From positions 1 through 40,595 of the forward strand of contig NZ_JASHIU010000019.1 in NCBI RefSeq assembly GCF_030733545.1: a stretch of DNA of 40,595 nt, in the 5' to 3' direction. The position numbers and the translations under genes are program-made. The notes under the pieces are model-generated. The model searched no databases. It saw nothing but the letters and a program-made list of their open reading frames with translations, and was not told the origin of the DNA. Positions 2,749-19,211 of the stretch are shown here, one piece after another (the first letter of the stretch is position 1; each line of letters begins with the position of its first letter). This DNA is from Oceanicaulis sp. MMSF_3324 (lineage in GTDB: Bacteria; Pseudomonadota; Alphaproteobacteria; Caulobacterales; Maricaulaceae).

Positions 2749-5700
2749 ATGCGGCATTCACTTATCAAGGTCGGGCTGTGCGCGTTTGCCATCAGCCTGT
2801 CGGGCGGTCTGGGCGCCTGGGCGCAGGACGACGCGTCAGCTGTCGCGCAGGCCGAAGCGGCCCGCCTGCTGGAGCTGCGCGCGCGGCAAGGTCTTGATGA
2901 GGAGACGCTGACACGCTTCGGGATGCGGCTGGAGACCTGCCGGCATGACGCCGCCGCGGCGTGCGCCCGGTTGCAGGCCGAGCTGGAAACCCTTGACGCA
3001 TCGGGTGACGGCGCCCCGCCCCTGCGCCTGGTTCGCAGCGAAACCCGCCTCCTGCCCGGCTCGGATGGCGAGATTGCGCAGGCGGAGGCTGGCCGCTCCG
3101 AAGCGCAACGGGCGCACCCGCAAGAGGCCGACACCATTCGTCCGGTCGTGGACTTGCTGACCGCCACGCCGGACGTGCTCGATGTGGATGCAGGCCAGAC
3201 CACCCTCCTGATCGATTACGTAGTCTCCGATGAGGGCGGGTCCTTCCTGGACCTGATGCTGCTGGATCTCGAGCACATGACCGACAGGTCCGTTCCGGAC
3301 ATTACGGGCGGGGTGTTCATGCCCACTGGCGCGCGCACATCGGGTCAGGCGCGGATCAATCTCGATGCCGGGGTCATTCCCGGCGACTATCGCGTCCGTC
3401 TGGTGGTGTTCGACGGGGCGGGCAACGGCAATGATCTGAGCCAGCCTGCGCCTGAAGTGACCATCATCAACTCAAGCGCTGACGCCGACGCTCCGGTGCT
3501 GGACTCCCTCACCATCACGCCCGATCCGCTGACGCTGGAGCAAGCCGACGGGGAATTGACCCTGTCCTATGAGGTGCGGGATGTGGGCTCCGCCGGGCTG
3601 GAATATCTCTCCTTTGGTCTCTACCAGATCGACAGCCCGACCTCTTCGGGGGCCGTCGCGCACACCTATGTCAACTTCACGGGCGAAAGCCAGGCGGAGG
3701 GCGAGTTGACGATGACCGTTCCCGCTGGCGCACGACCGGGCGAGCATTATGTGAGCGTCTACCTGAATGACCAGGCGGATAATCGGCTCTTCCTCAATCA
3801 TGAGGACCCGGAGCCCTACCGCGTGCTGACCCTGATCAACGACCATGCCGACCTGCTGTCGCCCACCGTGAACCGGCTCACCGTGACGCCGGACGCCGTG
3901 GAGACCTCGGATCTGGGCTCCACCCTGCTCGTGGAATACGAGCTCGCAGATGAGGGCGGGTCCGGTCTGAAACATTTCTACATGACCTTGTCCCAGGCCG
4001 AGGCCCAGAAACGGCAGACCATCTACCGGTCCTCGCTCATCGAGTTTGATGGCGCACAGACCGCACGCGGCCAGTTCACCTTCCGTCTTCCGCCGAATTT
4101 TCCCACTGGCGCGTATTATGTGGGCGCCACGCTGCGTGACGAGTTGAACAATGCGGCCGGTGACGGGAACAGCATCGGCCTCGCAACCACCCAGCTGATC
4201 TGGGTGAACGAGCCGGGCAAGCGCGCGTTCGGTCCCTTCCCCAATGTCGTGGAGCCCGACGGCGAGGGCCGCGACATCTTCCGCGTGACCGGACTTGAAT
4301 CCGGACCGCCCCAGCAGATCGAGGTGGCGTTCAGAAATCCCGAGATCCCCGGCTTTGACGGCGCTTTCAGCGATTGCGACCTGGCGGTCCAACCGTCGCG
4401 TCATTCCGGCGGCGAGTATCTGATCCTGGCTCATGAACTGGCGGCCTGCGGCGTCTTTGGGTCCGCAGACATTGTCTTCCAACTCACGCCGCACGCCTCA
4501 GACCTCAATCAGGACATTGACCTGCGACGCTTCCGGCTGAGCGAAACCGGCATGCTCAGCGATGTGGGATCGGATCGCGGCCCGTACTCTGACTGGCATG
4601 AGGGAAGAGGCGAAGCCGAGTTCGGACCGTTTGAATGGACCGAGACCCCCGGCAGCGGACGCCTGCACCAGTTCCGGGTGTCAGGCTTGTGGGAAGATCG
4701 CCCCCACAGCATGGAGATCGCCATCGCCAAAGCCGCCGTGGACGGTTTCTCCGGGGCGTTCACCGACTGCACGATCGACATCCCTCTCAGTGAGATCGAT
4801 AACACAGCCTACACCTTCACCGGCGCCGATCTCGCCGCCTGCGGTGATTTCAGGCGTGCGGATCTCAGCTTCCGCTTTGTTGATATCGCCGATTATGGCG
4901 AGCCGATCACCCTGACCCGTCTTGTGACCACGGCCCAGGGATCGATCACTGACTTCTCCTTTGACCAGCTGACCGACACGCCGATCCAGCCCGTGTCTCT
5001 GTCCGGCGGGCGCGCCCAGGTCGAAGCCGGTCCGTTTGAATGGACGGGCGACGCGACCGCGCCGACCCAGAACCTGTTCCGGATTTCCGGACTGTCCGGA
5101 GACCCGCAACAGATCGAGGTCGCCATCAACAACGCCGCCGCCAGCGGTTATGACGGCGCCTATACCGACTGCAATCTGCAGATCCGCCCCAGCCGGGCCG
5201 GCGCTCATGACTACCTGATCAGCGCCGCGGACCTGGCCGATTGCGGCCCCTTCGTCCGCGGCGATCTCAGTTTCCGGATCACCGCCGCTGCTACGGACAT
5301 GCCCGACGGCGTGCGCGTCCGACGGATCGCGGTTGGCGCTCATGGCGATTTGACCGACTTCAATTTTGATCACGCCTTAAGCTCCGCGGCGACGATCCGG
5401 GACAGCGGCAACGGCCAGTCAAATGTCGTTCTGGGTCCGTTTGAATGGACCGGCGACAGCACGGTCGGCACTCAGAACGTCTTCAGGATTACCGGCATTG
5501 ACGGGCTCCCCACGCGGATACAGGCCGCTCTCGCTGACGCCACGTCAGAAGGGTATTCAGGCAGTTATCTGGATTGCGAACTGACGGTTCGACCGGGCCG
5601 CGCCAGCGAGAACGATTATGTCATCACCAGCAATGACCTGGCCGATTGCGGCGACTTCGTGCGCGCCAACATCACCTTCCGGGTCCATGCCAATACCGGA

Positions 5701-5784
5701 CAGATCAGCACTGATGTCCGCATGCGGCGCTTCGCCGTCACACGCACCGGCGGTTTGACGGACTTCGGATTCGACAACCAGTAA
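2749..5784 (+). CDS. Large secreted protein with three Ig-like and four Cys-containing repeats
   Basis: A 1011-residue protein. The ATG at 2749 is preferred over one 39 bases upstream because GGAGG lies 6 bases before it and it starts a classic signal peptide (basic start, hydrophobic core, cleavage near AWA-QDD at residue 25). A charged helical region follows to about 130. Three Ig-like repeats begin near residues 137, 254 and 377 (LTATPD, LTITPD, LTVTPD, then LxxEYELADEGGSGL-type strands). Four repeats of 131-135 residues begin near 494, 625, 760 and 895 with a GPFEWT-type strand. Each holds two cysteines (for example DC and LAxCG), so one disulfide per repeat is likely. No enzyme motif, anchor or sorting signal is visible. 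A periplasmic or cell-surface binding or structural role is inference. I do not recognise the four-repeat family. Confidence 0.85.
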   Translation: MRHSLIKVGLCAFAISLSGGLGAWAQDDASAVAQAEAARLLELRARQGLDEETLTRFGMRLETCRHDAAAACARLQAELETLDASGDGAPPLRLVRSETRLLPGSDGEIAQAEAGRSEAQRAHPQEADTIRPVVDLLTATPDVLDVDAGQTTLLIDYVVSDEGGSFLDLMLLDLEHMTDRSVPDITGGVFMPTGARTSGQARINLDAGVIPGDYRVRLVVFDGAGNGNDLSQPAPEVTIINSSADADAPVLDSLTITPDPLTLEQADGELTLSYEVRDVGSAGLEYLSFGLYQIDSPTSSGAVAHTYVNFTGESQAEGELTMTVPAGARPGEHYVSVYLNDQADNRLFLNHEDPEPYRVLTLINDHADLLSPTVNRLTVTPDAVETSDLGSTLLVEYELADEGGSGLKHFYMTLSQAEAQKRQTIYRSSLIEFDGAQTARGQFTFRLPPNFPTGAYYVGATLRDELNNAAGDGNSIGLATTQLIWVNEPGKRAFGPFPNVVEPDGEGRDIFRVTGLESGPPQQIEVAFRNPEIPGFDGAFSDCDLAVQPSRHSGGEYLILAHELAACGVFGSADIVFQLTPHASDLNQDIDLRRFRLSETGMLSDVGSDRGPYSDWHEGRGEAEFGPFEWTETPGSGRLHQFRVSGLWEDRPHSMEIAIAKAAVDGFSGAFTDCTIDIPLSEIDNTAYTFTGADLAACGDFRRADLSFRFVDIADYGEPITLTRLVTTAQGSITDFSFDQLTDTPIQPVSLSGGRAQVEAGPFEWTGDATAPTQNLFRISGLSGDPQQIEVAINNAAASGYDGAYTDCNLQIRPSRAGAHDYLISAADLADCGPFVRGDLSFRITAAATDMPDGVRVRRIAVGAHGDLTDFNFDHALSSAATIRDSGNGQSNVVLGPFEWTGDSTVGTQNVFRITGIDGLPTRIQAALADATSEGYSGSYLDCELTVRPGRASENDYVITSNDLADCGDFVRANITFRVHANTGQISTDVRMRRFAVTRTGGLTDFGFDNQ

Positions 5785-5804: not shown

Positions 5805-7118
5805 CTACGCCGGCAAGCTCACGCGCGCCCGCAGGCCGCCCAGCGGGGAGTCCTCGAGCCGCAGTTCACCGCCATGGGCGCGCAATGTGTCGCGGGCGAT
5901 GGCGAGTCCGAGGCCCACGCCCTTGCGGTTGGCGTTGCGGCTTTCATCGAGGCGGGAGAAGGGTTTGAAGGCGTCCTCGCGCTGGTCGGCGGGGATGCCG
6001 GGGCCGTCATCATCGATGAGGATTTCCAGCCGGGAGCCATTGCGCCGCGCACTCAGCAGCACGTCCCCGGCATGGGCGGCGGCGTTGGAGACCAGGTTGG
6101 CGAGCGCGCGTTTCAGAGCGCTCTCGCGCGCGTGGACCAGAAGACCGTCTTCCACTTCGAGCCGCAGATCGACGCCCTCGCGGGCGGCGTCATCGGCGAG
6201 GGTTTCGCACAGGGCGGTGAGGTCGAGCGCGTCGGGCTCCTCGCCCGCCTGACCGCGCGCAAAGGCGAGATATTCCTCGAGCGCGGCTTCCATGTCCGCC
6301 AGATCGCGGCGGGCGGCGTCGCGCTCCTCGCTTTGCGGCATCAGGGCGAGCTGGAGCCGCAGGCGGGTGAGCGGGGTGCGCAAGTCATGACTGACACCGG
6401 CGAGCAATTGCGTGCGCTGTTCGATATGGCGCTTGAGCCGGCCGCGCATGTCGAGGAAGGCGGCGCTGGCGCGGCGGACCTCGCGGGCGCCGGCGGGCTT
6501 GAAGCGCTCCACATCCTGACCGCGGCCGAAGGCTTCAGCGGCTTCGGCGAGCTGGCGGATCGGTTTGACCTGGTTGCGGATGAACAGGATGGCGACGGTG
6601 AGCAGAAGGCCCGTGGCGAGGAACAGCCAGATCAGGAAGATATGCCCGGTGGTGGCGAACACCCGGTCGCGCGCCGCGATGAAGCGCAGCACGCCGCCCT
6701 CCACCTCGACGCGGATGTCCACATAGGCGGGGTAGCGGGTGGTGTCGAACCAGAAGGCGTTGTCCATCTCGTCGCCCAGCGCGGTCCTCAGGGTGCGATC
6801 GAGCGCCCGGAAGAAGGCGGTCCGGCGCGAGGTGGGCAGGGCATCGCCCTCGCGATACTCGACGCTGAGATCGGTTGTGGCGAAGGCCAGGTTCGCCAGC
6901 GTGTCAAACTGTTCGGGGCCTTCGCGCTCATAGAGCGCGGTGACCAGCGCCACCTCGCCCGCCACGCTTTCACTGAGGCGCGCCGTGGTGGTCTGCCAGT
7001 GCTGGTCAAAGAAGGCCCAGGTCACCGCCCCCTGCATCAGCGCCACGGGCAGGACAATGATCAGCAGCGAGCGCTCGAACAGGCCCTTGGGCAGATAGGG
7101 TTTCAGCGAAAAGCGCAT
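5805..7118 (-). CDS. EnvZ-type membrane sensor histidine kinase
   Basis: A 437-residue kinase. TM1 is at about residues 17-36, a periplasmic sensor at 37-157, TM2 at 158-180, then a HAMP linker. The dimerisation domain carries the phospho-accepting His244 in GVSHDLRTPLTRLRLQ. The ATP-binding domain shows an N box (NLVSNAAAHA), G1 (DDGPGIP) and G2 (GVGLGLAIA). This is the EnvZ/PetP-like layout. It starts 5 bases after the stop of the response regulator upstream, so the two are one operon and the regulator is the expected phosphate acceptor. The stimulus is unknown. It converges on the secreted repeat protein with only 20 bases between the stop codons. Confidence 0.93.
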   Translation of the reverse strand: MRFSLKPYLPKGLFERSLLIIVLPVALMQGAVTWAFFDQHWQTTTARLSESVAGEVALVTALYEREGPEQFDTLANLAFATTDLSVEYREGDALPTSRRTAFFRALDRTLRTALGDEMDNAFWFDTTRYPAYVDIRVEVEGGVLRFIAARDRVFATTGHIFLIWLFLATGLLLTVAILFIRNQVKPIRQLAEAAEAFGRGQDVERFKPAGAREVRRASAAFLDMRGRLKRHIEQRTQLLAGVSHDLRTPLTRLRLQLALMPQSEERDAARRDLADMEAALEEYLAFARGQAGEEPDALDLTALCETLADDAAREGVDLRLEVEDGLLVHARESALKRALANLVSNAAAHAGDVLLSARRNGSRLEILIDDDGPGIPADQREDAFKPFSRLDESRNANRKGVGLGLAIARDTLRAHGGELRLEDSPLGGLRARVSLPA

Positions 7119-7123
7119 CCGGC

Positions 7124-7834
7124 CTAGCCTTCAGCGCCGTCATAGACCGGCTCGGCGACCAGCTTGTAGCCCGAGCCGCGCACGGTCTGGATATAGAGCG
7201 GGGCCTTGGGGTCCGCCTCGATCTTGCGTCTGAGACGGGTGATCTGAACATCCACCGCCCGCTCGCCCGCGCCATTGGCGGCCTGTTCAGACAGCGATTG
7301 GCGCGACACCGCCTCGCCATTGGATTTGGCGAGCGCGGCCAGGAGCGCGGTCTCCCCGCCGGTCAGGCGCACCGATCGTCCATCCTCGCTCAACTGCCCG
7401 CTTTCGATCTCGAACCGCCATGGCCCGAACGCGACGGCTGACGGCCCGCGCGTCTGGGGCAGAGCCCGGCGCAGGATCGCCTGCACGCGCAGGACCAGCT
7501 CTTCAGGCTCGAACGGTTTGGCGAGATAGTCATCCGCCCCCAGGCTCAGCCCCTTGATGCGATCTTCGGGCTCACCGCGGGCGGTCAGCAGCAGGATGGG
7601 GGTGGCGTCGGTCTGGCGCACGGTTTCGGTCACCTCGAACCCGTCCGCGCCCGGCATCATCACGTCCAGAATGACAAGGTCAAAGCGCATCTGGGCCAGA
7701 AGCGAGAGCGCCTTCTGACCATCGCTGGCCGCCGTCACGCGCAGGCCGCGCGCCCGCAGGAACTTCGTCAGAAGATCGCGGATGCGGTCATCATCGTCGA
7801 CAACAAGGATATGGGCGGCGCGCGGGTCGGTCAT
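7124..7834 (-). CDS. OmpR-family response regulator
   Basis: A 236-residue two-domain regulator. The receiver has the acidic cluster VVDDDD at residues 11-16, phospho-acceptor Asp57 (VILDVMMPG) and the conserved lysine in LAKPFEPEEL. The C-terminal winged helix carries the OmpR-type signature (VDVQITRLRRKIE, IQTVRGSGYKL). The ATG at 7834 is chosen because the receiver domain begins right after it; the reading frame stays open upstream but without domain content. The ribosome-binding site is poor. It precedes and is coupled to the kinase at 5805-7118. It resembles OmpR/PetR-type regulators, but its target genes cannot be read from the sequence. Confidence 0.92.
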   Translation of the reverse strand: MTDPRAAHILVVDDDDRIRDLLTKFLRARGLRVTAASDGQKALSLLAQMRFDLVILDVMMPGADGFEVTETVRQTDATPILLLTARGEPEDRIKGLSLGADDYLAKPFEPEELVLRVQAILRRALPQTRGPSAVAFGPWRFEIESGQLSEDGRSVRLTGGETALLAALAKSNGEAVSRQSLSEQAANGAGERAVDVQITRLRRKIEADPKAPLYIQTVRGSGYKLVAEPVYDGAEG

Positions 7835-7896
7835 GGGAGTAAACTGCCCAAATCCGCCCGTTTTGACCAGTTGTCTGAGTGCGTCTGAAACCGTCG

Positions 7897-8199
7897 CTAA
7901 CTCTTCTTGAACGGCGCCGAGATCGCGGTGCCGACAATGGCGACGAGAATGCGCGCAATGAGCGTGAAGAAGAGCAGCAGAATGGCGCCCTCCTCGATCA
8001 GCAGGTCGAGCCAGACCTTGTAGCGCACCGGAATGTCGGGCCGAACGATCAGGGCCTCCACTTCCTTGGCGCGTTGAACCATCCAGTCGAGCCCTTCGGG
8101 CCACAGCACGCCCATGGCGATGAGCATGATGTAGGACAGGACAAATGACAGAAAAATCGTGAAAGTCGCGTTGGTCGCGCGCGCAAAGATCAGGCCCAT
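7897..8199 (-). CDS. Small two-helix membrane protein, function unknown
   Basis: A 100-residue protein with two hydrophobic helices at about residues 12-33 and 70-93. Between them is a charged stretch (MVQRAKEVEALIVRPDIPVRYK). The C-terminus is basic (APFKKS). The ATG at 8199 is chosen over a TTG five codons upstream because GGGAGG sits at ideal distance before it. It lies 62 bases upstream of the response regulator on the same strand, so it may be the first gene of that transcript. No known domain is visible. Confidence 0.75.
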   Translation of the reverse strand: MGLIFARATNATFTIFLSFVLSYIMLIAMGVLWPEGLDWMVQRAKEVEALIVRPDIPVRYKVWLDLLIEEGAILLLFFTLIARILVAIVGTAISAPFKKS

Positions 8200-8549: not shown

Positions 8550-11500
8550 TCAACGCTCGGGCGCCTGGGTTTCCGCCAGGGACATACGCGGCTTGAGCAT
8601 ATCCAAAGCAGCAACAAGCGCATTCAATTCCACGGGCTTGCTGAAATAGCCCTCGATATCCAGGCTCTCCACGCGTGACCTAGTTTCGACCGTGGCGTCA
8701 GCGCTGACGATATACACCGGCACGCGGGATTCACCCGCCTCCCCCGCCCGCAGCCGGCGAATGGCTTCTTCCCCGCCCATGCCCGGCATATGCAGATCCA
8801 TGAGCACGGCGTCGAACTGCTCGTCGCGCAACAGGTTCAGCGCTTCGTCACCGCTTGCGGCCACGACCGGCTCATACCCGCCCTGACGGACCATTTCGGC
8901 GGTCACGTCACGATTGACCTTCTGGTCATCCACAACAAGCACGCGCTTGTCCCGGCCGCCCCGTTCAGAGCTCTGCTTGAGACGCGGCGGCATGGTGACC
9001 TGTGCAGCGTCCTCGCTCTTGGCGTCCGGAGCGGGGAATTCGAACCAGAAGCAGGCCCCCTCGCCGGATTCAGAATTCACCCCGATTGCGCCGCCCATCA
9101 GCGTGACCAGCTCGCGCGCAATCGACAAACCCAGACCGGACCCTTCATGGCTGCGCGAATGGGACATATCCGCCTGCTCGAACCGGCCGAACACACGTTT
9201 TTGCACGGTCTCGCTCAGCCCCGGGCCCGTATCATGCACCTCGACCCGCACCCGATTGTCCGCGTTCAGGCGGGCCTCGACCCGCACTTCGCCGGCATCG
9301 GTGAACTTGATCGCATTGCCCAGAAGATTGCTCAGAATCTGCCGCAGGCGGTTGGCGTCGAGCATCGCCAACCGATTCAGCTCGGGCGACAGGGTCAAGC
9401 GTAGCGGCAAGGCCTTGCGATCCGCTTCGGGCATATGAGCCTGAACCGTTTCCTCGATGACCTCGGACGGGCGCACCGGCTTTTTGACAAGCTTGAGCTT
9501 GCCCACCTCGATCTTGGACAGATCAAGGATGTCCTCAATGATGGATAGCAAGGCCCGGCCGGAGGAGCGGATCGTCTGTACGAATTCCTTCTGGCGGTCG
9601 TTGAGATCGGTCAGCGCCAGCAATTGCGCGATCCCCAGCACGCCATTGAGCGGGGTGCGGATTTCATGGCTCATATTGGCGAGGAACTGGGATTTCGCCT
9701 CACTCGCCGCCTCCGCGCGCGCCAGCGCGGTCTTGAGCGTGTCTTCAGCCCGCTTGTGGTCGGTCAGGTCCTCGACAATGCCGATCATCCGCACCGGGCG
9801 ATCATGCTCATCCCGATCCACCACCCGGATGAAGACCTTGATCCAGACGGTGTAGCCCGCCGTGTTGATGATGCGGTGTTCCAGCACGAGCTGTTCGCAC
9901 TCCCCCCGGACCAGGGACTGGGCCAGCATGTGCACGTCTTCGATGTCATCGGGATGCGTGAACCGGGTCAGCGCATCCACATGGGTTTCCTTGTAGGCCA
10001 GCTCCGGCTTGCCCAGGATGGATGCCAGCGTCGCATCCATCTGCAGCGTGCTGGTCTGGGATTCCAGCTCCCAGACGCCCAGCCCCGCCACACGCAGCGC
10101 CATCTGAGCCCGCAGGCCCGCCTGGCGCGCCTCCTGTTCAATCCTGAGCTTGTCAGTGATGTTGCGCAGCGTGCCGGATATGCGCGCAGGGCGACCGTCC
10201 TCATCGCACAGGACCTCGCCAACCCCCTCGACCCAAAGATAATGTCCCTCCGAGTGCTGAAGCCGGAAGACAAGGGTCTGCTTGTGCGGACCGGGACTGC
10301 CGGGCTCGATCACCGGGTTCTTCAGGGTTTGCTGGACGGCGGACAGGTCATCGGGATGCACGGCCGCCAGGAAATCGGCAATCCGTCGCACCCCGGCCGG
10401 CGCCGGATTGCCCGTCATCTGGTAATAGCCCGGTGACGCGAAGAGCTGATCGGTCTTGAAATCCAGATCAAAGACCGTCAGGTCCGACCCCTTGATGGCC
10501 ACTTCGTACAAGCGCCTGTGTTCATTGGCTTCCTGCTCGGCCTTGCGCAAGGGTGTCTGGTCCGCCGCAATGCCGCTCATTTCTTTCGGACGGCCGGTCT
10601 CATCCCGGCGTATGACCGCGCCATCCACCTGCAGCCAGACCACTTCTCCATCCGGCCGGATGATACGGTGCGCCAGGCTGATGCGGCCGTCTTCAGAATT
10701 CAGCGTCTCATCCAGAGTCGCGGCCACGGTCTCGCGATCCTCGTGGACCATCAGCATCAGCATGTCGGCCCAGGGAAACGGCCTGTCGGTCAGATCCGGA
10801 CGCCCTAGGAGCGCCGCGAAGCGCTGGTCGAGATAGATGACCTGCTCATCTGTGGTGTACCACCAGCGCCCCATATGGGCGCTGTTGATGGCCACTTCGG
10901 CGGTCAGTCGGGCCTTGAGCGCCCGCGATTCCGCTTCTGCGATCTCGCTGACATCGACCAGCGTGCCGACCATGCGACGAGGTGCGCCGGCTTCGGCCTT
11001 CTCCGCCTGTCCATGGGATTCCACATAGATCCAGTGCCCGTCCGTATGACGCACCCGAAGGCGTTCGCGGAGCGGTGTGCCATCCTCGAGATGGCGCCAG
11101 ATCGCCGTCTGATACCGCTCCCGGTCGCCGGGATGCATGAAATCGAGCCCGGATTTGGAGGTGGGCGGCTGATAATCCTCCGGCAGGCCCATGATTTCCA
11201 GAAGACGGTCGGACCAGTACAGCGTCTCTTCGTCCGCATTCCATTCCCAGATGCCGGCGCCGGTGCCTTCAATCGCCAGCGCATAGCGCGATTCAGAATG
11301 CTCCAGTTGCGCCTTGGTCGCCCGGGCCGCCTCGTTCTGGCGCCGCGCCTTGATGAAGGCGCCGATCGTATTGGTGAGCGGGGTCAGGAATTCGGCGAGT
11401 TCGGCGTCATATCCACCCTCACGATTGGCGACCCCGGCAATGCCCAGCAATTCCTCCCCGCTCATCATCGGCAGCGCCATGAAAGAGCGCATGGCCGGGT

Positions 11501-11894
11501 GGCCGGGCGGCAGGTTCACATCCAGCGTCTGCCCCTTGGCGGCGTTGGCGATGACCGGCTTTTGATCATGCAGGACGCGCGCAAACAGCAGGTCGGGATT
11601 GACGAACTCCATCACCCCTTCCTGGCCGGACAGCTGGTACAGGGCGCGTGAATCCTCGTCCCAGCTGATATCGGTCATGGCCCAGGAACGCAGCCAGGGA
11701 TTGACCCCATCCCCCTGACCGACGACCTCGCCGACAAAGCCGTATTCGGACTCGGTGATCTCCAGCAGGATGTGAAGCAAGCGATTGAACGAGGCGTGAG
11801 CGGTCTGCTCGCCCCCTATATAGATGGACTGAACATCTGAAATCGCTTCCAGAAGCTTGCGACTCCCAGCATCCGAAATCATGTCTCGCGCCAT
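8550..11894 (-). CDS. Hybrid sensor histidine kinase with GAF and PAS domains
   Basis: A 1114-residue soluble kinase with no membrane segment. An N-terminal GAF-like domain (about residues 25-190) is followed by four PAS/PAC units (about 205-330, 335-450, 455-595 and 597-720). Most units show a WxWN-, WVEG- or WVQ-type PAC ending. Then come the HisKA domain with His743 in NMSHEIRTPLNGVLG and the ATPase domain (NLLGNAIKFTD, DTGPGLS, GSGLGLSIAR). The C-terminal receiver (about 985-1100) carries acceptor Asp1033 in MDLHMPGMGG. There is no Hpt domain, so phosphate would pass to a separate Hpt or stay in cis. It transcribes divergently from the small peptide and antiporter genes. Signals are probably cytosolic ligands or redox state; which ones is unknown. 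Confidence 0.93.
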   Translation of the reverse strand: MARDMISDAGSRKLLEAISDVQSIYIGGEQTAHASFNRLLHILLEITESEYGFVGEVVGQGDGVNPWLRSWAMTDISWDEDSRALYQLSGQEGVMEFVNPDLLFARVLHDQKPVIANAAKGQTLDVNLPPGHPAMRSFMALPMMSGEELLGIAGVANREGGYDAELAEFLTPLTNTIGAFIKARRQNEAARATKAQLEHSESRYALAIEGTGAGIWEWNADEETLYWSDRLLEIMGLPEDYQPPTSKSGLDFMHPGDRERYQTAIWRHLEDGTPLRERLRVRHTDGHWIYVESHGQAEKAEAGAPRRMVGTLVDVSEIAEAESRALKARLTAEVAINSAHMGRWWYTTDEQVIYLDQRFAALLGRPDLTDRPFPWADMLMLMVHEDRETVAATLDETLNSEDGRISLAHRIIRPDGEVVWLQVDGAVIRRDETGRPKEMSGIAADQTPLRKAEQEANEHRRLYEVAIKGSDLTVFDLDFKTDQLFASPGYYQMTGNPAPAGVRRIADFLAAVHPDDLSAVQQTLKNPVIEPGSPGPHKQTLVFRLQHSEGHYLWVEGVGEVLCDEDGRPARISGTLRNITDKLRIEQEARQAGLRAQMALRVAGLGVWELESQTSTLQMDATLASILGKPELAYKETHVDALTRFTHPDDIEDVHMLAQSLVRGECEQLVLEHRIINTAGYTVWIKVFIRVVDRDEHDRPVRMIGIVEDLTDHKRAEDTLKTALARAEAASEAKSQFLANMSHEIRTPLNGVLGIAQLLALTDLNDRQKEFVQTIRSSGRALLSIIEDILDLSKIEVGKLKLVKKPVRPSEVIEETVQAHMPEADRKALPLRLTLSPELNRLAMLDANRLRQILSNLLGNAIKFTDAGEVRVEARLNADNRVRVEVHDTGPGLSETVQKRVFGRFEQADMSHSRSHEGSGLGLSIARELVTLMGGAIGVNSESGEGACFWFEFPAPDAKSEDAAQVTMPPRLKQSSERGGRDKRVLVVDDQKVNRDVTAEMVRQGGYEPVVAASGDEALNLLRDEQFDAVLMDLHMPGMGGEEAIRRLRAGEAGESRVPVYIVSADATVETRSRVESLDIEGYFSKPVELNALVAALDMLKPRMSLAETQAPER

Positions 11895-15401: not shown

Positions 15402-16334
15402 CTAGTCGAACAGCTTGGAGACAGACTCGTCATTGGCGATCCGCCGGATCGCCTCGCCCAGCAGCGGCGCCACGGACAGCGAGCGGATATTCTTGCCCGC
15501 CGCCACCTTGGCCGTCACATCAATGGAATCAGTGACAACCAGCTCCTTCAGGACGGAATTGGAGATGCGCTCCACTGCCTTGCCCGAGAGCACCCCGTGG
15601 GTGATGTAGGCGGACACTTCCTTGGCGCCCTGGTCCTTCAGCGCCGCAGCGGCGTTACACAGCGTGCCGCCGGAATCGATGATGTCATCAAAGATGATGC
15701 AGCGGCGGCCTTCGACATCGCCGATGATGTTCATCACCTCGGACACGCCTGCCTTGGGGCGGCGCTTGTCGACGATGGCGATGTCCGCGCCCAGGCGCCC
15801 GGCCAGCGAGCGCGCGCGCACCACGCCGCCCACATCCGGAGACACGATCAGAAGATCGTCCACATCGTAGTGCTTGCGGATATCATCCTCGATCACCGGC
15901 GTGGCGAACAGGTTGTCGGTGGGAATGTCGAAGAAGCCCTGGATCTGACCCGCATGCAGATCGATGGTCAGCACCCGGTGGGCGCCGGCCTCGGCGACCA
16001 GGTTCGCCACCAGCTTGGCGGTGATCGGCGTGCGGCCGCCGGTTTTGCGGTCCTGACGGGCATAGCCGAAATACGGGATGACGGCGGTGATCCGGTTGGC
16101 GCTGGCGCGGGCCAGGGCGTCCATGCAGATCAGCAATTCCATCAGATGGTCATTGGCGGGCTCGGAGGTGGGCTGGATGATGAAGACATCCTGGCCGCGC
16201 ATATTCTCGTCGATGCGCACAAACAGCTCGCCATCGGCAAAGCGTTCGATCTCCACATCCGACAGAGGCGCATCAAGATAATCGGCGATGGCCTTGGCCA
16301 GTGGCCGGTTGGCGTTGCCGCACATCAGTTTCAT
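15402..16334 (-). CDS. prs: Ribose-phosphate pyrophosphokinase
   Basis: A 310-residue enzyme making PRPP from ribose 5-phosphate and ATP, for nucleotide, His and Trp synthesis. The N-terminal [15 protein letters not shown] and FADGE motifs, the flexible-loop residues ([16 protein letters not shown]), the [13 protein letters not shown] signature and the PRPP-binding loop ([14 protein letters not shown]) are all present. The length is normal for class I PRPP synthetase. The ATG at 16334 is preceded by GGAAAGG at good distance. The start GNANRPLA fits a Cys-Gly-Asn form usual in alphaproteobacteria. It is divergent from the ethylene-receptor-like kinase across 214 bases. Confidence 0.97.
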
Positions 16335-16548: not shown

Positions 16549-17721
16549 ATGCAATCGCTTCACGGCTTTATGCCCCATGGAATGTGCTATCTCTGGCGCG
16601 TGGACATCCTGCTCATGCACGTCACTGCAGATGTGCTGATCGGCCTGTCTTATTTTTCCATCCCCGTCGTGATCTGGCTGATTGCCCTGCGTCGCCCGGA
16701 CATCCTGTTCCGGCCGGTCGCCTATCTCTTCATCCTGTTCATCATCTTCTGCGGCGCGACTCACCTGTTCTCGATCTACACGATCTGGACGCCCGCCTAT
16801 TTCACCGAAGGCGTGCTCAAGCTGGTCACCGCCATCATCTCGGTGGCCACCGCCGTCACGCTCTGGCCCCTGCTGCCCAAGGCGCTCGCCATGCCCAGCA
16901 GCGCACAGCTGAAACGGAGCAATGACTCATTACGCGACGAAGTGAGCCTGCGCATCGGCGCAGAGCGTCAGCTGAAACAATTGACCAATTCGCTCGAACG
17001 CCAGGTCAAGCGCCGCACCGCCGATCTGGAACGCTCCAACGGCACGCTGAGGGACTTCGCCGCCGGCGCCTCGCACGACCTCAAGGCCCCCGCCCGACAG
17101 ATCTCGCTTCTGACGGATCTGGCCCAGCGCGAGCTGGGCGCGAACTCCAACGAGAAGGTGCTGGGCTATCTTCACGACGTGAAGTCCAAATCGCGCGACA
17201 TGCTCATGCTGATCGATACGCTTTTAAGCTATTCCGATCTTGTGGAGACCAAGGCGGTGTCGAGCGCCGCGCCGCTGCGCCCCCTGCTCGAGAAACTGCT
17301 GGACGCCTATTATCCCAAGACGCCCATCCGGCTGAACATCAAGGAAGACCCCGTTCTGGTCGGCGACGAGACCTTGCTCTCTCACCTGTTCCGCAATCTC
17401 GTCGACAACGCTGTCAAATATTCCGACAAGTCGGAGATCCATCTCACCGTTGACGCTCGTAATACCCAGGAGGGCCTGCTGGTGCGGTTCGCGGATAACG
17501 GGCCCGGCATTCCCGAGACCCAGATGGACGGCGTTTTCAAGATGATGCAGCGTTATCGCAGCGACGTTCCCGGCTCTGGCGTCGGCCTCGCCTTCTGCGC
17601 CCGCATCATGGAAGCCCATGACGGCAAGATTTCGGTCGACCGCCATTACGAGGGCGGCGCGCGATTCCTGCTTCACTTCCCCCCAGCCGAGGAGCCCGCC
17701 GATGACGAGCCTGATCATTGA
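16549..17721 (+). CDS. Histidine kinase with an ethylene-receptor-like membrane domain
   Basis: A 390-residue kinase. Three membrane helices (about residues 24-46, 55-77 and 86-109) form a domain resembling the ethylene-binding domain of plant ETR1 and cyanobacterial SynEtr1. Asp28, Tyr35, Ile38, Pro39, Cys68 and His72 each sit three positions after ETR1 Asp25, Tyr32, Ile35, Pro36, Cys65 and His69; the last two hold Cu(I) in ETR1. The sequence around them is DVLIGLSYFSIP and FCGATHLF. A coiled coil (about 118-168) leads to the kinase core with His176 in GASHDLKAP, N box RNLVDNAVKYSD, G1 DNGPGIP and G2 GSGVGLAF. The ATG at 16549 is chosen because AGAGGT precedes it and the conserved MPHGMCYLW lies right after. 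Copper and ethylene binding are inferred. The paired regulator overlaps its end. Confidence 0.88.
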   Translation: MQSLHGFMPHGMCYLWRVDILLMHVTADVLIGLSYFSIPVVIWLIALRRPDILFRPVAYLFILFIIFCGATHLFSIYTIWTPAYFTEGVLKLVTAIISVATAVTLWPLLPKALAMPSSAQLKRSNDSLRDEVSLRIGAERQLKQLTNSLERQVKRRTADLERSNGTLRDFAAGASHDLKAPARQISLLTDLAQRELGANSNEKVLGYLHDVKSKSRDMLMLIDTLLSYSDLVETKAVSSAAPLRPLLEKLLDAYYPKTPIRLNIKEDPVLVGDETLLSHLFRNLVDNAVKYSDKSEIHLTVDARNTQEGLLVRFADNGPGIPETQMDGVFKMMQRYRSDVPGSGVGLAFCARIMEAHDGKISVDRHYEGGARFLLHFPPAEEPADDEPDH

Positions 17722-18091
17722 GGACAGTCAGATTGACGCCACCCTGATCACGAGCGCCCTGGAAGCGCGCGGATATGGCGATCTGAAAGTCTTCGAGCGG
17801 GCTGAGGACGCGCTGGCCTTTATCCAGGGCGATTCGCCGCGTCCCGATTTCTGTCTGGTGGACAGCCGATTGCCCGGCATGTCCGGCGCGGATTTCATCA
17901 GGCTTGTGAAAAGCTGCGCCAAGATGGTCGGGGTGCCCTGCATCAGCCTGTCCACCTCCAATCTCAAGGACGAGATTCGCGTTGCGCTCGATGCGGGCGC
18001 GGACGGTTATTTCATCAAGCCCTCAGACCTGGACGCCTATGAGCAGGTGATCGCAGACATCATCAGCGCGCATCTCAGCGCGCCCGCTTGA
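17702..18091 (+). CDS. Single-domain response regulator
   Basis: A 129-residue receiver with no output domain. IIEDSQ (residues 5-10) gives the acidic pair, Asp54 in CLVDSRLPGMSG is the phospho-acceptor, and Lys106 in YFIKPSDLD is the conserved lysine. Its first 20 bases overlap the end of the kinase gene, which indicates translational coupling and a cognate pair. The ATG at 17702 has GAGGAG upstream inside the kinase gene and starts the beta strand of the fold. Receiver-only proteins often act by binding partners such as motor or phosphorelay proteins; the partner is not evident. Its last 17 bases overlap the end of midA on the other strand. Confidence 0.92.
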   Translation: MTSLIIEDSQIDATLITSALEARGYGDLKVFERAEDALAFIQGDSPRPDFCLVDSRLPGMSGADFIRLVKSCAKMVGVPCISLSTSNLKDEIRVALDAGADGYFIKPSDLDAYEQVIADIISAHLSAPA

Positions 18092-19211
18092 ACGGCGCGA
18101 TCCCCGGCGCAGGCGGCAGGCCTTGGGCGCTGAAGGCGGCGAGCTTGAACAGCGCTCCCATGTCCTCGGGCGAGACAAGACGATGCATCTGGCGTTTCAG
18201 CTTGGCCTGACCCGCTTCATCCACCGACCGCGCCAGCACCGCGGCGCGCTGCTCGATGCCCAGCTCGGTCAGGAAATCGCCCTGGGTCATGGGCCCGAAG
18301 GCTGACAGCCCCGCATCTTCCCCCAGGCGCAACAACCGGTCAAAATCCACCCAGGCCGTCAGGTCCGCCGTGCCCGGCGCGTCCAGCGGGTCCACCTTCT
18401 GATGGGCGCGAAGCGCCTGCAGCGTGTCCCCGGTCTCCGGCTTTGAAGACCCGTAATCGACAAACAGGGCATAGCCCGGATCACGCGCAAAGCGGGCCGC
18501 AAGCTGCTCGACCTGTTGCTGATCGCCGGGGCGCAACTCCACCAGCACACCATCCGCCGCCTCGCGCAGCTCCGGCGCCATGAAACCGATATCGCCTTCG
18601 CCCAGCACGGGGCCCAGCGCAAAGACAAAGCGGGTCTCGTCCTCAGGGTCGAGCGTGACCACGCGCTCGCGCCACTCGCCCTTGTGACGGATGGCCTGGC
18701 GCACGGGCAGGCAGTCAAGAAACTCATTGCCGATCACCACGGCCGGACCGGACGGGGCCTTGTCAAAGGACTTCGCCCAGCTGATCGGAACCTGCGCATT
18801 GGCCAGGGTTTGCCCCTGCACCATTTTCAGCGCGGGGGACGCCTCGACCAGGGTCACGTGCACGGCGTCCAGAAAGCCGGGCGCGGCGCGGCCGGCGCGC
18901 AGCATGTCGCTCATCATCCGCCCCGTGCCCGGACCCAGCTCGATCAGCTCAAAGCGCGAGGGCGCGCCCATCTGCATCCAGCATTCGGCCGCCCATAGCC
19001 CGATCAGCTCGCCGAACATCTGGCTGATCTCGGGCGCGGTGATGAAGTCATTGGCGGCGCCGAGCGGGTCTTTCGTGGCGTAAAACCCCGCCATGGGATG
19101 AAACAGGGCCTCGGTCATGAAGGCGGCCACCGACAGCGCGCCTTCCGAGCGGATGCGGTCACGCAGGCGCTCGGAGATGATCTGCGCGGGGCGAAAGTCG
19201 TCATCGCTCAT
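18075..19211 (-). CDS. MidA-family SAM-dependent methyltransferase
   Basis: A 378-residue protein of the MidA/NDUFAF7 (DUF185) family. The mitochondrial member dimethylates an arginine on a complex I subunit during assembly. The N-terminal signature GALSVAAFMTEALFHPMAGFYAT, FITAPEISQMFGELIG, the SAM loop ELGPGTGRMM and the later NEFLDCLPVRQ are all present. The start at 19211 has AAGGA eight bases upstream. It lies 21 bases after lgt on the same strand, an arrangement common in alphaproteobacteria. The pgeF/yfiH gene that often follows is missing here; a convergent receiver gene takes its place. A role in respiratory-complex maturation is inferred from the family. Confidence 0.9.
   Translation of the reverse strand: MSDDDFRPAQIISERLRDRIRSEGALSVAAFMTEALFHPMAGFYATKDPLGAANDFITAPEISQMFGELIGLWAAECWMQMGAPSRFELIELGPGTGRMMSDMLRAGRAAPGFLDAVHVTLVEASPALKMVQGQTLANAQVPISWAKSFDKAPSGPAVVIGNEFLDCLPVRQAIRHKGEWRERVVTLDPEDETRFVFALGPVLGEGDIGFMAPELREAADGVLVELRPGDQQQVEQLAARFARDPGYALFVDYGSSKPETGDTLQALRAHQKVDPLDAPGTADLTAWVDFDRLLRLGEDAGLSAFGPMTQGDFLTELGIEQRAAVLARSVDEAGQAKLKRQMHRLVSPEDMGALFKLAAFSAQGLPPAPGIAPFKRAR

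Follow-up and report, generated by a model that had tools for sequence, protein, structure and literature searches.

The stretch of DNA analysed here, 40,595 nucleotides from Oceanicaulis sp. MMSF_3324 and referred to as the window, contains a gene for a histidine kinase that a first-pass annotation had described as ethylene-receptor-like. The locus raises the question of whether this alphaproteobacterial protein senses ethylene, to which partner it would pass the signal and whether the response is linked to motility. Publications are given by PMC number.

The kinase gene, its partner gene and the sensor domain

The sensor histidine kinase gene was placed at 16549..17721 on the forward strand (ATG at 16549, stop codon TGA at 17719-17721; 390 aa) on the basis of the open reading frame, Pfam matches and a structure model. 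This start was preferred over that of a longer frame of 477 aa beginning with ATG 16288, because AGAGG is located five bases 5′ of ATG 16549 and because the open frame of a relative with 83% identity (L003) extends just 21 codons further upstream. From the N- to the C-terminus the protein consists of a membrane ethylene-binding-like domain (16600..16893, forward strand; PF25487 ETR1_N, residues 20-115), HisKA and HATPase_c. The kinase core (17047..17685, forward strand) was delimited by Pfam, motif positions and alignment and comprises HisKA at residues 167-231 with H176 (27.7 bits against a cut-off of 26.9) and HATPase_c at residues 272-379 with N287, D316 and a G2 box at 342 (85.1 bits). The 3′ end of the kinase gene is overlapped by 20 bases by the gene of a receiver-only response regulator (17702..18091, forward strand; 129 aa), which bears out the earlier statement that the kinase is coupled to a receiver-only protein. 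The regulator carries the acidic residues E7 and D8, the presumed phospho-acceptor D54 and K106; its receiver domain PF00072 was scored with 61.7 bits on a longer ORF enclosing the regulator, and no output domain was found in the 129 aa with Pfam. Judged by motif positions, all boxes of kinase and regulator are intact. The window's genome contains 18 other matches to the regulator, at 23-35% identity.

The match of residues 20-115 to ETR1_N reached 111.5 bits (E = 2.3e-32; cut-off 27), while the same profile gave no match in 14 control genomes. In the profile search of residues 1-115 that the first-pass annotation had proposed as a check, ETR1_N was the only Pfam family found, with no second family at E 1, and a different three-helix sensor family was rejected. 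Among the NCBIfam models compared with the window protein, the best 25 of 83 all stayed under their own cut-offs.

All seven residues essential for binding in ETR1, together with K91, are present in the window protein as D28, Y35, I38, P39, I65, C68, H72 and K91. The first bases of their codons are located at 16630 (D28), 16651 (Y35), 16660 (I38), 16663 (P39), 16741 (I65), 16750 (C68), 16762 (H72) and 16819 (K91), and that of S98 at 16840. The earlier placement of D28, Y35, I38, P39, C68 and H72 was correct, and I65, K91 and S98 can be added. The offset of exactly three relative to ETR1 which had been reported for the former residues holds too: D25, Y32, I35, P36, I62, C65, H69 and K91 of ETR1 were matched on its sequence, and S98 was matched by position. 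Y32 is taken here to be the seventh essential residue of ETR1. C65, H69, I35, P36 and I62 are named as essential in PMC6586836, and D25 and K91 in PMC11819568.

A full-length AlphaFold2 model (27 rows) had a mean pLDDT of 82.5 and a pTM of 0.58, and a domain-only model (43 rows) a pLDDT of 90 and a pTM of 0.75. In both models the sensor domain is predicted to form helices at residues 18-48, 55-80 and 84-114, and in the full-length model a long predicted helix (118-196) runs from the sensor into the kinase. No chain of a solved structure resembled the sensor domain by sequence at E 10; a PDB profile search with the domain returned a single chain at E 0.24, a rhodopsin, and nothing meaningful, and Foldseek gave 45 matches up to E 10, none of them at E 0.001. 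The comparison of the full-length model with solved structures returned many kinases, and the best 50 listed are histidine kinases or phytochromes by title.

Comparison with known ethylene receptors and conservation of the binding site

The closest proven relative found for the window protein is AzoEtr1 of Azospirillum brasilense, another alphaproteobacterium, for which function as an ethylene receptor was reported in 2025: radiolabelled ethylene is bound by AzoEtr1, and the protein has an influence on biofilm and on the colonisation of roots (PMC11819568). For the comparison its sequence was taken from a plasmid record of A. brasilense Sp 7 (locus L131). The sensor domains of the two proteins share 50% identity over 114 aa, and the checked positions are in register: D35, C75, H79 and K98 of AzoEtr1 correspond to D28, C68, H72 and K91 with an offset of 7 each, as counted on the L131 translation. 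Both proteins end in a kinase, and AzoEtr1 is likewise followed by a receiver-only regulator, AzoRRetr1 (135 aa in print), the start of which overlaps the kinase stop (PMC11819568). With the ETR1_N match, the binding residues and the confident three-helix model, this relative upholds the original description of the window protein as an ethylene-receptor-like kinase. The differences are that a PAS domain separates sensor and kinase in AzoEtr1 (525 aa), whereas Pfam detected no such domain in the window protein at E 1, and that the function was tested in AzoEtr1, whereas the window protein is known from its sequence. Moreover, BLAST similarity between the two loci is limited to the sensor, and neither the kinase core nor the regulator of the window had a match to L131 at E 1e-3, although the kinases and regulators of both loci are members of the general superfamilies of kinases and receivers. 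Therefore, the output of AzoEtr1 is not transferable to the window pair.

SynEtr1 (slr1212) of Synechocystis PCC 6803 is also an ethylene receptor kinase with phosphotransfer to a regulator, but it is in addition a light receptor, and its signalling targets are slr1213 and a small RNA (PMC11819568, PMC6682694, PMC7700396), whereas no photoreceptor domain was found in the window protein with Pfam. Ethylene inhibits the kinase of ETR1 and, by indirect evidence, that of SynEtr1 (same sources). With Arabidopsis ETR1 and the plant receptors the window protein shares the family of the membrane domain (Pfam ETR1_N); it differs in that no GAF domain was found after this domain (Pfam, E 1) and in that the receiver is encoded separately. 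Compared with ETR1, it is three residues shorter between helix 2 and helix 3 and starts with the bacterial FMPHGxCxxW instead of the plant N-terminus.

According to a review, many proteobacteria carry ethylene-binding domains with a wide range of outputs (PMC7700396), and the novelty of the window protein is therefore limited; since AzoEtr1 is in print, the receptor type and its alphaproteobacterial precedent are already known. The view that ligand and output are open in this group thus no longer applies to alphaproteobacteria in general, where AzoEtr1 was tested (PMC11819568), and stands for the Oceanicaulis group, in which no test was found. A narrow literature search returned no work on ethylene or copper binding by a Maricaulaceae receptor.

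Conservation was counted on 84 fetched domain rows, which represent 77 distinct segments. H72, Y35 and I38 are kept in 77/77 segments, C68 in 74/77, I65 in 71/77, D28 and P39 in 63/77 each and K91 in 59/77, and all eight residues occur together in 46/77. The three segments without C68 are degenerate paralogues, as are the three rows that do not align at the N-terminal motif; in the 81 rows aligning there, P9, H10, G11, C13 and W16 are kept throughout (81/81). In a Colwellia group (L019, L021, L022, L023, L028, L029, L033, L041, L052) the Pro36 equivalent is replaced by Thr with Cys and His retained, and ethylene binding may be altered in these proteins, judging by this change. The D25 equivalent is N in nine cyanobacterial rows. 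Because of such residue changes, membership in the family alone is no proof of ethylene binding. The sensor is more similar between relatives than the kinase: in ten 20-kb regions with HisKA-type kinases, the two closest genomes excluded, identity to the window was 55-68% for the sensor versus 34-48% for the kinase, for instance 67.8% versus 47.6% in L111 and 63.6% versus 33.9% in L112.

Distribution, a second copy and possible split receptors

The nearest named relative of the window protein, among the best 80 of 549 matches, is from Oceanicaulis sp. HTCC2633 (83%); further named matches among these 80 belong to cyanobacteria, gammaproteobacteria, acidobacteria, Balneolota and other groups. 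ETR1_N was detected over its cut-off in 23/119 genomes of the family and in 28/385 genomes of the class (the window's genome counted in both cases), and the domain is a patchy but ordinary part of alphaproteobacteria. A tree of 81 distinct domains grouped the window with 13 other HisKA-type kinases with weak support (94/26), all of which belong to the window's family or to an unclassified alphaproteobacterial bin of its genus. A receiver gene is located directly downstream in 12 of the 14 clade members, window included, and is absent in L089 and L090. For 66 distinct long ORFs the downstream receiver was a short frame in 32 cases and a long one in 1 case; 29 had none, and 4 were cut by a contig end. 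Ethylene-receptor-like kinases beside response regulators were also seen on a conjugative plasmid of Novosphingobium (L132) and on a mobilizable plasmid of Blastomonas from an algal phycosphere (L133), and such plasmids are a possible route of spread.

The profile search revealed a second ETR1_N kinase in the window's genome (G000:C11:153164-153448, 42.3 bits). Its gene (L002 751-1863, reverse strand; 370 aa) has kept the HisKA and HATPase_c matches and H72, while His, Ala, Ala, Ala and Tyr stand at the places of D28, P39, I65, C68 and K91, respectively. No receiver gene was found directly downstream. Close copies are present in G088 and G096 (L108, L109), which are also the two genomes with the window locus.

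In seven genomes of one Maricaulis-type genus the sensor domain is free-standing (127-158 aa in six, 255 from stop to stop in one) and keeps all eight residues, and in 7/7 it is followed on the same strand by a separate kinase gene. An example is L059 with the domain at 5986-6369 and the kinase at 6376-8055; the kinases of the others (L050, L058, L096, L097, L099, L100) are 44-66% identical to the L059 kinase over the part compared, and the prediction of two membrane segments refers to the L059 kinase alone. The split layout, with the binding residues likewise retained in the free-standing domain, also occurs in two further alphaproteobacterial families, at L137 5681-6106 and L138 5352-5810 (G251, G355), and a narrow search of part of the literature did not find this form in print. 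At L139 (5713-6297, reverse strand) the sensor frame and the next kinase frame (5005-5709) are parted by a stop, perhaps due to a broken gene or an assembly error. Within the window's family the sensor domain is furthermore fused to HWE_HK in L107 and L104 and to HisKA_2 in L088. The idea that HWE-kinase copies lie beside the PhyR stress pathway was rejected, as no such gene was present among 10 neighbours of L114 and L124.

These layouts are observed. A speculative reading of them, rather less likely than not, is that the ethylene-binding domain of Maricaulaceae is a plug-in module which has been wired to HisKA, HWE and HisKA_2 kinases and, in the Maricaulis-type split receptor, might act in trans, and that the copy lacking the copper-site Cys could modulate the intact one. 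Action in trans and the partnership of the latter copy are guesses. The second copy and the split form are more interesting than the receptor of the window itself.

Probable function of the gene pair and its genomic neighbourhood

The gene pair is best explained, with good confidence, as a two-component ethylene sensor of the bacterial ETR1_N type; ligand binding by the window protein is predicted, whereas the order of the domains, the residues, the overlap of the genes, the conservation of sensor and pair, and helices in the models were observed here. By analogy to AzoEtr1, SynEtr1 and ETR1, the sensor protein would sit in the membrane as a dimer, in which C68 and H72 of helix 2, aided by D28 of helix 1, would hold one Cu(I) per chain for the binding of ethylene. 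From helix 3 (K91) the signal would run to the kinase along the long helix 118-196, which presumably forms a coiled coil in the dimer. If the sign of the response resembles that of the three known receptors, ethylene would probably lower the autophosphorylation of H176. The phosphate would pass from H176 to D54 of the overlapping regulator, and the phosphorylated regulator would then act by binding other proteins.

The same fold and copper site might have another natural ligand, such as CO, another olefin, another Cu(I)-binding gas or copper itself, which is considered unlikely. On general chemical grounds, a Cu(I)-Cys/His site could accommodate several small ligands, and the family also occurs in Colwellia, Balneolaceae and Gemmatimonadota, which appear to be without an evident tie to plants. 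Ethylene is favoured by the retention of the seven ETR1-essential residues and K91, including the equivalents of I35, P36 and I62, which in an ETR1 simulation adjoin the clusters of ethylene (PMC6586836), and by AzoEtr1, which has the same residues and binds ethylene (PMC11819568). That the receptor is degenerate or vestigial and has lost ligand binding is highly improbable: such a copy seems to exist in the window's genome at G000:C11, with Ala for C68 and His for D28, whereas in the window copy none of the checked residues is changed, both enzyme modules and the partner gene are retained, and the identity of the sensor to those of the two closest relatives amounts to 89% and 85%.

Preferring the ethylene sensor, we turn to its output, for which control of motility or taxis is quite doubtful. 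The description of the window as rich in motility genes is accurate for about 22-38 kb and does not fit the immediate neighbours, a prs-like gene (15402-16334, reverse strand) and a MidA-type methyltransferase gene (18075-19211, reverse strand; Pfam Methyltransf_28); the gene names used (prs, midA, lgt, accC and proC) are our presumptive reading of the neighbour proteins. At 8550-11894 (reverse strand) the window encodes a large hybrid kinase that combines GAF, several PAS, HisKA, HATPase and receiver domains. A flgL-like gene lies about 4 kb off the pair with flgK beyond, and from prs to flgK the two closest relatives share the gene order of the window. For a test of this linkage, 12 proteins of the flagellar region were compared with 27 neighbourhoods (20 regions of 20 kb, including that of the own-genome paralogue, and 7 named loci), which represented 18 of the 24 further genomes of the family that had a match; G021, G066, G106 and G114 were left out. 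Matches were obtained in L115, L116 and L003 only, L003 being the same place as L116; flagellar-region proteins thus occur near the pair in 2/19 regions of relatives, both from the closest ones. Of 14 further genomes of the genus, 2 have the pair between prs and midA (G088, G096) and 3 have prs and midA adjacent with short gaps of 97, 450 and 428 bases (G108, G052, G080); in the remaining 9 prs and midA are not neighbours, and in 4 of these they are on different contigs. The survey shows that the presence of the pair between prs and midA is variable; elsewhere in the genus it sits at another place or was not found. AzoEtr1-YFP localises to one cell pole, which would suit a role in motility, whereas aerotaxis was unchanged on disruption of AzoEtr1 (PMC11819568). 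The suggested link to taxis is not supported by these results. Attachment or metabolic adjustment near algae is our guess for the output of the regulator, ranked above flagellar control; surface behaviour such as attachment and biofilm formation, which had been suggested along with taxis, would be a guess by analogy.

The window protein joins the known bacterial ethylene-receptor-like kinases, and it probably senses ethylene, as far as its sequence can tell. If ethylene is bound, a bacterium of the Oceanicaulis group would read a gas that is mainly known as a hormone of plants; in one study the relative abundance of Oceanicaulis was higher in co-culture with a diatom than without it (PMC8940921). 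If true, the tested bacterial ethylene receptors would be extended from cyanobacteria and a root colonist to algae-associated bacteria. Moreover, the copy lacking the copper-site Cys in the same genome, a natural control, and the Maricaulis split form would give access to how the membrane domain passes its signal.
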